From: Acidobacteriota bacterium
GTDB taxonomy: Bacteria > Acidobacteriota > Terriglobia > Bryobacterales > Bryobacteraceae
Length of the DNA stretch: 39,589 nucleotides
Reading direction: 5' to 3'
Assembly (NCBI GenBank): GCA_025354525.1
Contig: JANXMS010000289.1
Coordinates: forward strand, 1 to 39,589
Within the stretch, counting starts at the first letter, position 1; each line of letters opens with the position of its first letter. Below the pieces are notes generated by a model, which was given only the letters and a program-made list of their open reading frames with translations, did no database searches and was not told the DNA's origin. The translations under genes and the position numbers were made by a program. Positions 21,535 to 25,975 of the stretch are shown here, piece by piece.

Positions 21535-22344
21535 CTACCGCTGGCACGCAGGGCAATGAAATGTACTGCGCCCCGCTTGCACAAACCGTTCAATCGGTCC
21601 CTTGCACCGCCGACACGCCTCTCCCAAACGCCCATACACCGCACACGCCAGCAAGTCCGCTTCCGGAAACTCCTCACCTGACCGCGTCACCCGAAACGTG
21701 TTCTCAATCGCAGCCGACAGCGTCTTCCGAATCGCCCGGTGCAGCGCCTTCCACGCCGCATCGTCCATCTCCGGAATCGCCCGCCCCGGCGCGATCCGTG
21801 CCGCATACAAGCTCTCCGCCGCCCAAATATTCCCCAATCCAACCACCTTCGATTGATCCAGCAAAAACGGCTTAATCGGCCCCTTCGCCCGTGCGCCACT
21901 GCCCTTCAGTTGTTGCCAAGTGAAGCCCTCGTCAAGCGGTTCCGGACCGTAATCAGCGAACACAGCCGCCAACTCCTCAGTCCGATGTAAATGCACATTT
22001 CCAAACGTCCGAGCGTCTTCAAAAACCAGCGCGGCACGATTCGACAACCCAAACCAGACCCGAGTAAACCGCGGCAGCACGCGCGCATCCGGAACCCAGT
22101 AAAAATGCCCCGTCATCCCCAATTGCACCCGCAACGTCCAGCCCCTATCCAAATGCAGCAACACGTTCTTTGCCCGCCGGGCGTAACCCACCACCTTGCG
22201 CCCCCGCACCGTCTCCGCCAGATCATCCGGCGATTGCGGCGCAATCAAGCTCGCCCGCAGCACCGTCGCCTCCCGAATCCGGACGCCCGTCGCACACTCC
22301 ACCAACCGCCGAACCATGTACTCCGCTTCCGGCAGCTCCGGCAC
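21535..22344 (-). CDS. mutM: Formamidopyrimidine-DNA glycosylase (Fpg/MutM)
   Basis: Base-excision repair enzyme removing oxidised purines such as 8-oxoguanine and cutting the abasic site. The 269-residue sequence starts (GTG) with PELPEAEYMVRRL, giving the catalytic Pro at position 2 after Met removal and the Glu next to it. AKNVLLHL carries the conserved Lys, LGMTGHF and GLGNIWAAESLYAARI are family segments, and the zinc finger is C244-x2-C247...C264-x2-C267 with GRSTFHCPACQ. The second position of the motif (EAEYMV rather than EVETV) is a variant; Nei-like enzymes start differently, so Fpg is preferred. The GTG overlaps the last base of the FHA gene's TAG. Confidence 0.94.
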   Translation of the reverse strand: MPELPEAEYMVRRLVECATGVRIREATVLRASLIAPQSPDDLAETVRGRKVVGYARRAKNVLLHLDRGWTLRVQLGMTGHFYWVPDARVLPRFTRVWFGLSNRAALVFEDARTFGNVHLHRTEELAAVFADYGPEPLDEGFTWQQLKGSGARAKGPIKPFLLDQSKVVGLGNIWAAESLYAARIAPGRAIPEMDDAAWKALHRAIRKTLSAAIENTFRVTRSGEEFPEADLLACAVYGRLGEACRRCKGPIERFVQAGRSTFHCPACQR

Positions 22345-23765
22345 TATTGCTTGTCCAAATGCGCCAGCGGATTATCGAAATCAAAACCGAACAGCCGCGG
22401 GTTCTCGCCGATCACCGAAGCCGAAACAATGTAGAACACGTAGTCGTAAGTCTCCTGCGGAATATCGGACCGAAACTCTGTCAGCAAACGCCAAAAATTT
22501 CTCTCGCGCGCATTGCTCGGCAGGCTCTTGATCCTTTTGATGACTCTACCCTCGCCCCAGTTGTAAGAAGCCATCACCAACAGTCCCGAAGCCAGCGAGT
22601 CCGTCGAATAGAGATCTTTCAGATACCGTGATGCCGCCCCCGTCGCCCTCTCCCAATTGTGCCGGTCGTCTCCCGTGTCGGGCCGCGGAAGGTCCGCCAA
22701 CGGGCCAATCTTCAAGCCATACTTCGCCCCCGTTTCCGGGATAAACTGCCACATCCCTTTTGCGATTCCCATGTACGTCGGCGGGCCGCTAATGAAAGGG
22801 TCGAAGTTGCTCTCCTGCATCGCCAAATAGAAAAACTGCGGCGGCAGCCCCTGGTTCAAAAGCTCAGAAGTTATCCGCGACGTGTAGTTGTTCTCCTTGG
22901 CCCGCATCACCGCCATCTTGTACCTTCCCGACCCCTGCCACTTCTTGATATAGTTCTCCACTTCCTCTTTGAACCCGGGCGGAATGTCCAGTTCGCACTC
23001 CCCCAAAACCCGCGAAATCCGCATGATCAATCGATCCTGTTCGCTCATCTTCGGGTCGTAGACCTTCAACGTCGTCAAAAACTTCTCGTAGTTCTTCTCC
23101 ATCTCCTGCCGACGCGTCCGGTACTTGCCGACGTTCTCAGCCTTTACGTTCGCGATGTCGACGTCGATCGCCTTCATCTGATAGAACAGCTCCTGCGCCA
23201 ACGCCTTCCGCTCGCTCAACTCCCGATGTTGATAGTACGCATACCCGGCAATCGCCAACGCCACCACCCCCACCCCACCCAGTGCCATCGCAAACTTCGA
23301 CCGCTGCTTCTTCTGCACCCGTTGAAACGCACTCCGGATCATCATCGTCTGATGGCCGGCTTCGCCCTGCGTCCCCGGCGTCAAATACTTTTCCGTGTAC
23401 GACTTCAGCACCATCGTGTGGCTGGCAACCGGGGCGGGAGCGGCCACCGCCGCAGCCGGCGGCTGCACTTCGAACCAAACCCACGGACCCTCCAGCCCCA
23501 GTCGCACGATCAGCGTCGGCGACACCGGCGCGCTCGTTACCCGTTCGCCATTCAGCAGGATGCCATTCGAGCTATTCAAATCCTGAATCCACCACTGGCC
23601 TTGCTCGTAGGAGACCTTCGCGTGTCGACGGCTAATGTGGCTGTCGTCGATCCGTAGTTCGCACTCTTCGGTCCTTCCAATATGAAACGTGGTCTGGAAG
23701 TGGTAGGTTTGAACGTTGTTCGAGTCTTGGCCGGTGTGGACGCGAAGTACTGGGACTGAACTCAT
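22344..23765 (-). CDS. FHA domain - transmembrane - lytic transglycosylase fusion
   Basis: A 473-residue protein with three parts. Residues 5-100 form an FHA phosphothreonine-binding domain (HIGRTEECELRIDDSHISRRHAKV, NSSNGILLNGERV). A linker with Ala/Pro and Thr residues follows, then one membrane segment at 158-178 (FAMALGGVGVVALAIAGYAYY) preceded by positive charges, which puts the FHA domain inside the cell. After an extracytoplasmic helical spacer, an SLT-type lytic transglycosylase domain starts near 310 (YLAMQESNFDP with catalytic Glu 318; GIAKGMWQFIPETGAKYGL; MASYNWGEGRV). It should cut peptidoglycan under control of a cytoplasmic Ser/Thr kinase signal. No kinase lies in the window. 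It is divergent from the LssY_C gene with only about 30 bp between starts. Confidence 0.9.
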   Translation of the reverse strand: MSSVPVLRVHTGQDSNNVQTYHFQTTFHIGRTEECELRIDDSHISRRHAKVSYEQGQWWIQDLNSSNGILLNGERVTSAPVSPTLIVRLGLEGPWVWFEVQPPAAAVAAPAPVASHTMVLKSYTEKYLTPGTQGEAGHQTMMIRSAFQRVQKKQRSKFAMALGGVGVVALAIAGYAYYQHRELSERKALAQELFYQMKAIDVDIANVKAENVGKYRTRRQEMEKNYEKFLTTLKVYDPKMSEQDRLIMRISRVLGECELDIPPGFKEEVENYIKKWQGSGRYKMAVMRAKENNYTSRITSELLNQGLPPQFFYLAMQESNFDPFISGPPTYMGIAKGMWQFIPETGAKYGLKIGPLADLPRPDTGDDRHNWERATGAASRYLKDLYSTDSLASGLLVMASYNWGEGRVIKRIKSLPSNARERNFWRLLTEFRSDIPQETYDYVFYIVSASVIGENPRLFGFDFDNPLAHLDKQ

Positions 23766-23794: not shown

Positions 23795-25975
23795 TTGCAC
23801 AAATCAGCGCCCCTAGTATCGACCTTTCTGGCCTCGCTTGGGCTATGCCTCGGCGCTGACCTCACTGGCGATTCGCGCCTCGAACTGCGCTTGCAACAGG
23901 AAATCAATTCCTACTCCTCAGCCGTTGGTGACCAAGTCCAGGCCGTGCTGATCGCCCCCTACATTGTCAGCGGTCTTCTCCGCATCGCGCCCGGTGCCCG
24001 CGTTCTCGGCGAAATCGTCGAAGTCCGCCGCGTAGGCGTCGGCTTTGCTCGCGAAACCGCCACACTCTCGTTCCGCTTCTCGAAGGTCGAACTCCCCGAC
24101 GGAAACTGGGTCGAGACTCGGGCTCAAGTCGTCGCCATCGATAATGCCCGCGAAAAAGTCGATAAGGATGGACGCGTTCGCGGCATCCGCTCAACGAACA
24201 CCCCCGGCTTTCGCGCCTCCGGACTCTTAACCAGCCTAGCCGCCGTCGACCCCATCGCACTCGCCTTTTCCACCGCCGCTTTCGCCTCCGTGCTTCGCTT
24301 CTCTGAACCCGAGATTCGGCTTAAGGCAGGCACGGAATTGGTGGTCCGCTTGCTCGATGGAACCGGCTGGGAGCCGCTGCCTCCTCAGTTATTGGGGCTC
24401 GCCGAACCAATGCCGCCTGAGTTTCTTGCGCGCTTGCCCTATCGAACCCAAACACCCGGTCGGCGTCAGGAATCAGACCTGACCAACCTCGTTCTGGCCG
24501 GCGATCCGACCGCCATCGAACGAGCGTTCATCGCCGCGGGCTGGCAGATTCCTGAAGCTCTGAGCTCGGCCACCGCTTACCGGACCTTTCGAGCGCTCGC
24601 CGGAAATCACGAGTATCAGGATGCCCCGATGTCCACCCTGCTCCTCGAAGGCCAGGCTCCCGTCCAGTCCTGGTCCAAGGCCTTGAATACCTTTTCCAAG
24701 CGCCACCATCTTCGCCTGTACGCCACCAAAGAGGTGTGGGAGGGCAAACAAATCTTCACCGCAGCCGCCACCCAGGACGTCGGAATCAATTTCTCGCGCG
24801 GACGTGGCCTTTTCACCCACGTCATCGACGAAAACATCGATCGAGAGCGCAGCAAGGTCGTCAACGATCTCCTCTTCACCGGCTGCGTCGAAGCCGCCGA
24901 ACAGATACCCCGCCCGTGGGTTCCCATCGAAGCCTCTAACGCCACCGGCCAACTTTTGCTCACCGACCGAGCCGTCGCAGTCCTCGTCTTTGGCGACTGC
25001 CTCCATGCCCGCCGCTTCGATGAAATCGCCGCCCCCTCCCCCGGCCCCTATCGCGGCAACCAAGCCGCCCGGATTCTCCGCCAAACAGTGCTTACCGTAC
25101 GCAACGACCTCTTCCGCGGCAGCCTCATCTATCAAGGAGCGTCCATCCTAACCCAGGCCACCAAAAACTATAGCCGTAGTCGAAACTCGTTCCAGCCTCA
25201 ATCCGGCCCCACCATGGCCGGCCCCGTCGTCCGCTCTCCCAAGCTCCATCGCAGCCCCGCCGAATGGGCCCCTGCCTCGGTCGAACTCTCCGTCAACGGC
25301 GGCCTCATGGTCTTCAGTAGATCATCCGTCGGTGCCGAAGGCATCATCCTCCGGCTCGGCCACAACCCCTCCCAAATGCACGAACTCGTCGCCGCCAACC
25401 GCATTACCCCGGGCTTCGCCCTCGGCACCACGGTCACTCTGAACACATTCCGCTGGGTCTCCCACGAACTTGGCTTCGGCTATCAACGCGGGAATCTGAA
25501 GCTCGAACTCGACGGAGCATCCGGCGTCGTCGAACAAAAAACCGGCTACTTAACCCGCCAGTTCACCTCGAACACCCTCATCCACTTCCGACCCCGCGAA
25601 AGCCGCCTCCGGCCCTTCTTCGCCATGGGACCCGTCCTCCAACTCGTCCATCTCACCGACGCCCCGTTCACGAAAGCTCGTGGCCTCCTCCGCTACGGCT
25701 TAACCAACGTCGGCATCATCCGCTCCGCTTACAACTTCGAAAACGCCCCCCCTCTCCAAGGCGGAGGCATCTTCCAGCTAGGCGTCCAATTGGGCGGCGG
25801 CGTCCGCTATCGCCTCAGCGAACACTGGACCATGCGGGCCGACTATCGCAACACCTGCACCCCTCCCCCGGACCTCCTCCGGAAATCCCTCGAACCCCAA
25901 GTATTGCCCAATCAAATGCATCGCGGACGCATCTCCCAGCAACGCGTCAGCCTCGGCATCGCCTTCACTTTCTAA
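23795..25975 (+). CDS. LssY_C-domain outer-membrane-type protein, function unknown
   Basis: A 726-residue protein starting at a TTG just after GGAGG (unusually close), with a signal peptide (STFLASLGLCLGA). Residues 25-190 are a beta-rich domain (GDQVQAVLIAPYIVSGLLRIAPGARVLGEI). Residues 228-370 match the LssY C-terminal domain: DLTNLVLAGDPTAIERAFIAAGW, YATKEVWEGKQIFTAAATQDVGINF, THVIDENIDRERSKVVNDLL. The last 220 residues look like an outer-membrane beta-barrel, ending in alternating strands and Phe (VSLGIAFTF). LssY is linked to export of extracellular factors in other bacteria, but the domain's role is unknown. The stop overlaps the convergent peptidase gene by 11 bp. Confidence 0.8.
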   Translation: MHKSAPLVSTFLASLGLCLGADLTGDSRLELRLQQEINSYSSAVGDQVQAVLIAPYIVSGLLRIAPGARVLGEIVEVRRVGVGFARETATLSFRFSKVELPDGNWVETRAQVVAIDNAREKVDKDGRVRGIRSTNTPGFRASGLLTSLAAVDPIALAFSTAAFASVLRFSEPEIRLKAGTELVVRLLDGTGWEPLPPQLLGLAEPMPPEFLARLPYRTQTPGRRQESDLTNLVLAGDPTAIERAFIAAGWQIPEALSSATAYRTFRALAGNHEYQDAPMSTLLLEGQAPVQSWSKALNTFSKRHHLRLYATKEVWEGKQIFTAAATQDVGINFSRGRGLFTHVIDENIDRERSKVVNDLLFTGCVEAAEQIPRPWVPIEASNATGQLLLTDRAVAVLVFGDCLHARRFDEIAAPSPGPYRGNQAARILRQTVLTVRNDLFRGSLIYQGASILTQATKNYSRSRNSFQPQSGPTMAGPVVRSPKLHRSPAEWAPASVELSVNGGLMVFSRSSVGAEGIILRLGHNPSQMHELVAANRITPGFALGTTVTLNTFRWVSHELGFGYQRGNLKLELDGASGVVEQKTGYLTRQFTSNTLIHFRPRESRLRPFFAMGPVLQLVHLTDAPFTKARGLLRYGLTNVGIIRSAYNFENAPPLQGGGIFQLGVQLGGGVRYRLSEHWTMRADYRNTCTPPPDLLRKSLEPQVLPNQMHRGRISQQRVSLGIAFTF

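Follow-up and report, generated by a model that had tools for sequence, protein, structure and literature searches.

The window analysed here, a stretch of 39,589 nucleotides from an Acidobacteriota bacterium of the Bryobacteraceae, contains on its reverse strand a single uninterrupted reading frame with an ATG start, whose 473-residue product (P0001, hereafter FHA-SLT) consists, in order, of an FHA domain, one transmembrane (TM) helix, a helical stalk and an SLT transglycosylase domain (Table 1). The TAG stop codon of this gene shares one base with the GTG start of a downstream gene for an Fpg-like DNA glycosylase (TAGTG), and the two genes are probably co-transcribed. A functional tie between them was considered and dropped, as the adjacency is kept in only one part of the window's genus, where the Fpg-like neighbour is confined to one subclade. 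In divergent orientation to FHA-SLT lies a gene (23795-25975, forward strand) whose 726-residue product has an LssY_C domain and weakly matches an outer-membrane beta-barrel, an adjacency that is likewise kept in part of the genus.

Table 1. Coordinates of FHA-SLT, its parts and associated genes. Positions are those of the window unless a locus of a relative (L) is given.
Feature	Position	Strand	Remarks
FHA-TM-SLT protein gene (P0001)	22344..23765	-	473 aa
FHA domain, residues 28-90	23496..23684	-	Pfam PF00498
Juxtamembrane motif GHQTMMIRSAFQRVQKKQRSK, residues 137-157	23295..23357	-	predicted cytoplasmic; holds conserved Thr140
Single TM helix, residues about 158-178	23232..23294	-	hydropathy, positive-inside flank
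Helical stalk (predicted periplasmic) and helices ahead of the SLT domain, residues 179-306	22848..23231	-	AlphaFold2 model
SLT lytic transglycosylase domain, residues 307-417	22515..22847	-	Pfam PF01464
Codon GAG of predicted catalytic Glu318	22812..22814	-	E318 in QES
Fpg-like DNA glycosylase gene	21535..22344	-	downstream of FHA-SLT gene
Fused TssB-TssC-like gene	L118:5856-7856, L145:11793-13322, L140:10911-12560		also at other loci

The N-terminal domain belongs to the FHA family both by its Pfam match (E = 1.3e-16; 61.2 bits, cut-off 20.7) and by its fold, as Foldseek comparison returned mycobacterial FHA domains as top matches (6ccd, GarA and Rv0020c), with a probability of 1.00 for 6ccd, 7rj3 and 3po8. 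The residues of the phosphothreonine (pThr) pocket are present as G30, R31, S45, H48, N67 and G68, in the pattern G-R, S-x-x-H and N-G. Among 78 aligned homologous proteins, from which all residue counts were taken, G30 and H48 occur in all 78, S45 in 74, R31 in 73 and N67 in 72, and R31, S45, R46, N67 and G68 are each retained in 72-74, suggesting that the domain binds phosphothreonine. The C-terminal domain matched PF01464 (E = 7.4e-14; 51.8 bits, cut-off 21.3) and agrees with lytic transglycosylase family 1 in its score, its glutamate and its motifs, which are E318-S, G337-M-W-Q-F and A399-S-Y-N-W-G. Glu318 had been named as the catalytic residue in the initial annotation, and this numbering proved exact (E318 in QES, GAG at 22814-22812). 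E318 stands in all 78 homologues, and GMWQF and ASYNWG show little or no variation, so that the SLT domain is predicted to cut peptidoglycan. Among solved structures, the LysM-containing protein 8rhe comes closest to it in sequence (E = 6.7e-10). An AlphaFold2 model of the whole protein, generated with 54 homologues as input, had a pLDDT of 90.7.

That an FHA domain is linked through the membrane to an SLT domain in one protein, as the initial annotation had proposed, was borne out by the Pfam matches to both domains and by the single hydrophobic segment (residues 158-176). KKQRSK stands just ahead of this segment and an N-terminal signal peptide is absent, which under the positive-inside rule predicts a topology with the FHA domain in the cytoplasm and the SLT domain in the periplasm. 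One TM helix, flanked by basic residues on the cytoplasmic side, is present in nearly all aligned homologues. In the AlphaFold2 model an unbroken helix covers residues 138-206 and passes through the membrane, and two conserved columns, E256 and P262, lie within the stalk and pre-SLT region. The linker from the FHA domain to the TM helix is freely divergent except for a membrane-proximal island, G[ED]xT[ML][ML][IV]R.A[FY], in which Thr140 (T140-M-M-I in P0001) is a threonine in 71 of the 78 homologues; in the alignment, the KSB1/Calditrichota members lack this motif. Phosphothreonine followed by isoleucine or valine at position +3 fits FHA recognition, and the T-[ML]-[ML]-[IV] motif, a good FHA-ligand pattern, is thus a candidate phospho-switch.

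FHA-SLT resembles several known protein families in part. Like Fha/TagH (TIGR03354) and the PpkA/PppA pathway, it pairs an FHA domain with linkage to a kinase of the type VI secretion system (T6SS, an injection machine that works on cell contact) and a PP2C phosphatase, but it is not Fha/TagH, as its TIGR03354 match reaches 43.7 bits (cut-off 120) and covers residues 6-79 only; the TM helix and SLT domain replace the TagH C-terminus, and the clusters often hold a separate FHA protein too. The closest family to its SLT sequence is MltD (PRK10783; solved relative 8rhe), from which it differs in scoring 61.1 bits against an equivalog cut-off of 508, in showing no LysM in the Pfam scan and in having an FHA domain and TM helix in place of the MltD N-terminus. 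With T3SS proteins of the YscD type (PF16697) it shares an FHA-like domain on the cytoplasmic side and a single TM helix after it, but it carries an SLT domain instead of the ring domains found in YscD-type proteins. Identity as YscD was dropped, as the PF16697 match (46.7 bits) overlaps the FHA match.

A scan for homologues, using one genome per species, yielded 80 loci, mostly of full-length relatives. Carriers were found among the Acidobacteriota, Desulfobacterota, Chromatiaceae and other Proteobacteria, Ignavibacteriota, Nitrospirota, KSB1, Calditrichota, Aminicenantes and Rhodothermota. They are rare within the phyla sampled (5 of 297 Acidobacteriota and 3 of 296 Desulfobacterota genomes, with full-length copies in 4 and 3, respectively), whereas 17 of the 18 other genomes of the window's genus have a clear copy, 16 at full length and one partial, the latter from a genome that is 62% complete. 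This retention in the genus, together with the key residues kept in the 78 homologues, argues against a chance fusion. Genes at the relatives' loci were called with a simple longest-ORF caller, and GC-rich stretches may be mis-called (e.g. L198). The Acidobacteriota also hold a second, divergent family of the same FHA-TM-SLT architecture (L030:1357-2769, forward; L031:1465-2949 and L217:9117-10559, both reverse), with 25-29% identity to P0001 and 42-47% internally, and no T6SS neighbours at those three loci. A 1093-residue Bacteroidota version (L116:6012-9293) has a very long insert separating the FHA and SLT domains; its locus also has a TssB-like gene, a PP2C gene and a kinase gene.

Examination of the relatives' loci revealed that FHA-SLT in many of them adjoins VgrG/PAAR, directly follows TssM, or adjoins genes for Ser/Thr kinases, PP2C phosphatases or FHA proteins. 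In Desulfopila (L143 and L088) the T6SS cluster runs TssJ-K-L-M-A-B-C-Hcp-E-F-G-ClpV-VgrG-DUF2169-pentapeptide-DUF3540-PAAR and then FHA-SLT, beyond which lie two unknown genes, an FHA protein, a PP2C, a trypsin-like protein and a Ser/Thr kinase. An uncultured acidobacterium (L071/L166) has the order TssK-TssL-TssM-FHA-SLT, and one contig of another member of the Bryobacteraceae (G030) carries a kinase with an FGE-sulfatase domain beside FHA-SLT, together with VgrG, ClpV, TssG, TssF, TssC, TssB, TssK, TssL and TssM. T6SS-linked fusions of a Ser/Thr kinase with an FGE-sulfatase domain occur at L182:17644-19332, L141:7730-9424 and L081:13941-16139, and presumably resemble PpkA joined to TagR. 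Within 8 kb of FHA-SLT, T6SS core genes were found at 22 of 80 loci, a kinase or phosphatase at 24 and either at 36; many of the contigs are short, and the loci of the window's genus add nothing to these counts. Of the 38 distant carrier genomes, 30 have TssC, as against 44 of 297 and 34 of 296 genomes in the phylum samples of Acidobacteriota and Desulfobacterota, respectively, and full-length FHA-SLT in the phylum samples occurred mostly in TssC genomes (pooled Fisher test leaving out two centre genomes, p = 0.001). Among the 29 TssC-bearing carriers in which both positions were known, FHA-SLT lay within 40 kb of TssC on the same contig in 18, with about one expected. The linkage to T6SS recurs across the FHA-SLT tree outside the KSB1/Calditrichota branch. 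As many T6SS-bearing genomes lack the gene, FHA-SLT is optional for T6SS. In several distant relatives FHA-SLT also adjoins a divergent one-chain protein matching both TssB (VipA) and TssC (VipB) below the NCBIfam cut-offs, which is an orphan in the window's genome; this fused protein (c10) was dropped as a strict partner of FHA-SLT, being found in non-carriers of the family as well.

Adjacency to VgrG and PAAR in several clusters, combined with a peptidoglycan-cutting domain, could indicate that FHA-SLT is a T6SS effector directed against the wall of target cells, with an immunity gene alongside. We rejected this reading, which we regard as very improbable, because both a delivery domain and a conserved partner are absent: the Pfam scan of P0001 revealed neither PAAR nor any other delivery domain, and the gene following FHA-SLT differs between clades, encoding c26 or c21 proteins with no evident signal peptide in the Desulfobacterota, a lipoprotein-like protein (c11) in the Chromatiaceae, and Fpg or others in the Acidobacteriota. 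A TM anchor and an intact, predicted cytoplasmic pThr-reading domain also argue against an effector, as do the strong conservation of the sequence and the absence of toxin-like polymorphism.

Encoding within T6SS clusters is seen in many relatives and not at the window locus, and FHA-SLT is unlinked to T6SS genes in the rest of the window's genus too. In the window's genome TssB, TssC, Hcp, TssE, TssF and TssG lie on one short contig, while searches of this draft assembly of 633 contigs found neither TssK nor TssM; in G006, the relative nearest to it (96% identity in FHA-SLT), two kinases follow TssM. In close relatives within the genus, between one and three Ser/Thr kinases come after TssK-TssL-TssM, among them a kinase-FGE protein like that of G030. 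Across the family, a Ser/Thr kinase stands just past TssM in 14 of 16 carriers versus 3 of 14 non-carriers; when genera are the unit of counting, with G030 scored as positive because its kinase adjoins FHA-SLT within the same cluster, the association is weak (4 of 5 versus 3 of 14, p = 0.04). The tree puts the window's FHA-SLT in a clade whose other members include T6SS-linked acidobacterial copies.

The unlinked copies bring in a different explanation, namely that FHA-SLT is a general regulator through which Ser/Thr kinase output tunes peptidoglycan turnover in growth or stress independently of T6SS, and that some T6SS clusters borrowed it. Besides the arrangement in the window's genus, the second FHA-TM-SLT family without T6SS linkage speaks for this, as does the absence of TssC from 8 of the 38 distant carriers, including all four KSB1/Calditrichota-branch genomes searched. 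The recurrence of T6SS linkage over the tree outside that branch and the proximity to TssC far above chance weigh against it, and carriers are a tiny minority of the phyla sampled, unlike what would be expected of a core wall regulator. Overall we judge this explanation rather unlikely for the family, yet it is a serious rival, chiefly for the window's own copy. The carriers without TssC and the unlinked second family indicate that the FHA-TM-SLT architecture may be older or broader than T6SS.

With moderate confidence, we favour the interpretation that FHA-SLT is a T6SS-dedicated, membrane-anchored lytic transglycosylase under the control of T6SS threonine phosphorylation. Its observed basis comprises the architecture, the conserved pThr-pocket and catalytic residues and the confident predicted fold, together with the linkage to T6SS and kinase genes in relatives, the T6SS genes in the window's genome and the T6SS-linked kinases in its genus. 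In the proposed mechanism, a PpkA-like T6SS-associated Ser/Thr kinase, countered by a PP2C phosphatase, would phosphorylate a threonine on a partner, which may be TssL, the separate Fha protein or Thr140 of FHA-SLT itself. The cytoplasmic FHA domain would dock on this phosphothreonine, gathering or reorienting FHA-SLT at the assembling TssJLM complex, and the SLT domain across the membrane would make local cuts in the glycan strands, letting the complex through the wall. We infer both the kinase-substrate pair and a requirement for FHA-SLT when the T6SS is assembled, also in the window's organism, in which the gene is unlinked. The initial annotation had read the protein as a one-component route from Ser/Thr kinases to wall remodelling. 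The recurrent kinase and PP2C neighbours fit the kinase-to-wall part of that claim, while the notion of a free-standing route to general remodelling probably does not hold: as comparative genomics places the family mainly with T6SS, FHA-SLT more likely cuts the wall locally, to let the machine be assembled. The label "one-component" is also misleading, since a separate kinase is needed and the T6SS clusters carry one.

Precedents exist for separate parts of this mechanism. Passage of the T6SS membrane complex through peptidoglycan is an open question in most species. In enteroaggregative E. coli, the lytic transglycosylase MltE has a T6SS role together with TssM, which stimulates it; dedicated transglycosylases within T6SS clusters have been called "an exception" and housekeeping enzymes are probably recruited (PMC10433429). 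FHA-SLT would resemble MltE in opening the wall for the membrane complex, but unlike that housekeeping enzyme it has its own, predicted cytoplasmic FHA domain, and the T6SS cluster itself encodes it in many relatives. It resembles Acinetobacter TagX in being a peptidoglycan enzyme encoded among T6SS genes, although TagX is an endopeptidase for which no FHA domain is described (PMC10433429). In Agrobacterium, Fha binds pThr14 of TssL (PMC3953482); inspection of TssL sequences from the window's genus, most of which are truncated calls, revealed nothing clear in the way of such an N-terminal phosphothreonine motif. As FHA proteins are known to dock T6SS parts (PMC3953482), FHA-SLT might also be a structural anchor, a tether whose SLT domain mainly binds wall glycan while its FHA domain docks on the baseplate or TssL. 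The long helix and stalk of the AlphaFold2 model would suit a tether, but Glu318, GMWQF and ASYNWG, conserved as they are, would be superfluous in a pure binder, making this explanation improbable. FHA domains, SLT domains and the notion of a T6SS wall enzyme are already known; we found no description of an FHA-SLT fusion in the open-access papers searched, and what is new is that a pThr reader and the enzyme are joined through the membrane. If the favoured interpretation is correct, a direct link between the T6SS-licensing kinase pathway and wall cutting would reside in one widespread membrane protein family.

A more tentative extension, which we consider possible without expecting it to hold, is that the phospho-switch is built into FHA-SLT: a T6SS kinase would phosphorylate Thr140, pThr140 would be bound by an FHA domain, either its own or that of an adjacent chain, and the unbroken helix 138-206 would pass the change across the membrane to switch or cluster the SLT domain. 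The FHA domains of Bdellovibrio DgcB, GarA and OdhI are able to read a phosphothreonine of their own chain, as the title of entry 6hc1 also states for an FHA domain, and Thr140 is proposed here as the analogue; those three proteins are soluble and have other outputs. Such a switch, if true, would restrict wall opening to the place and time of an ordered injection machine. As a separate observation, T6SS clusters of the window's family contain two TssK genes (L181:5545-11047 and L142:10494-14965).
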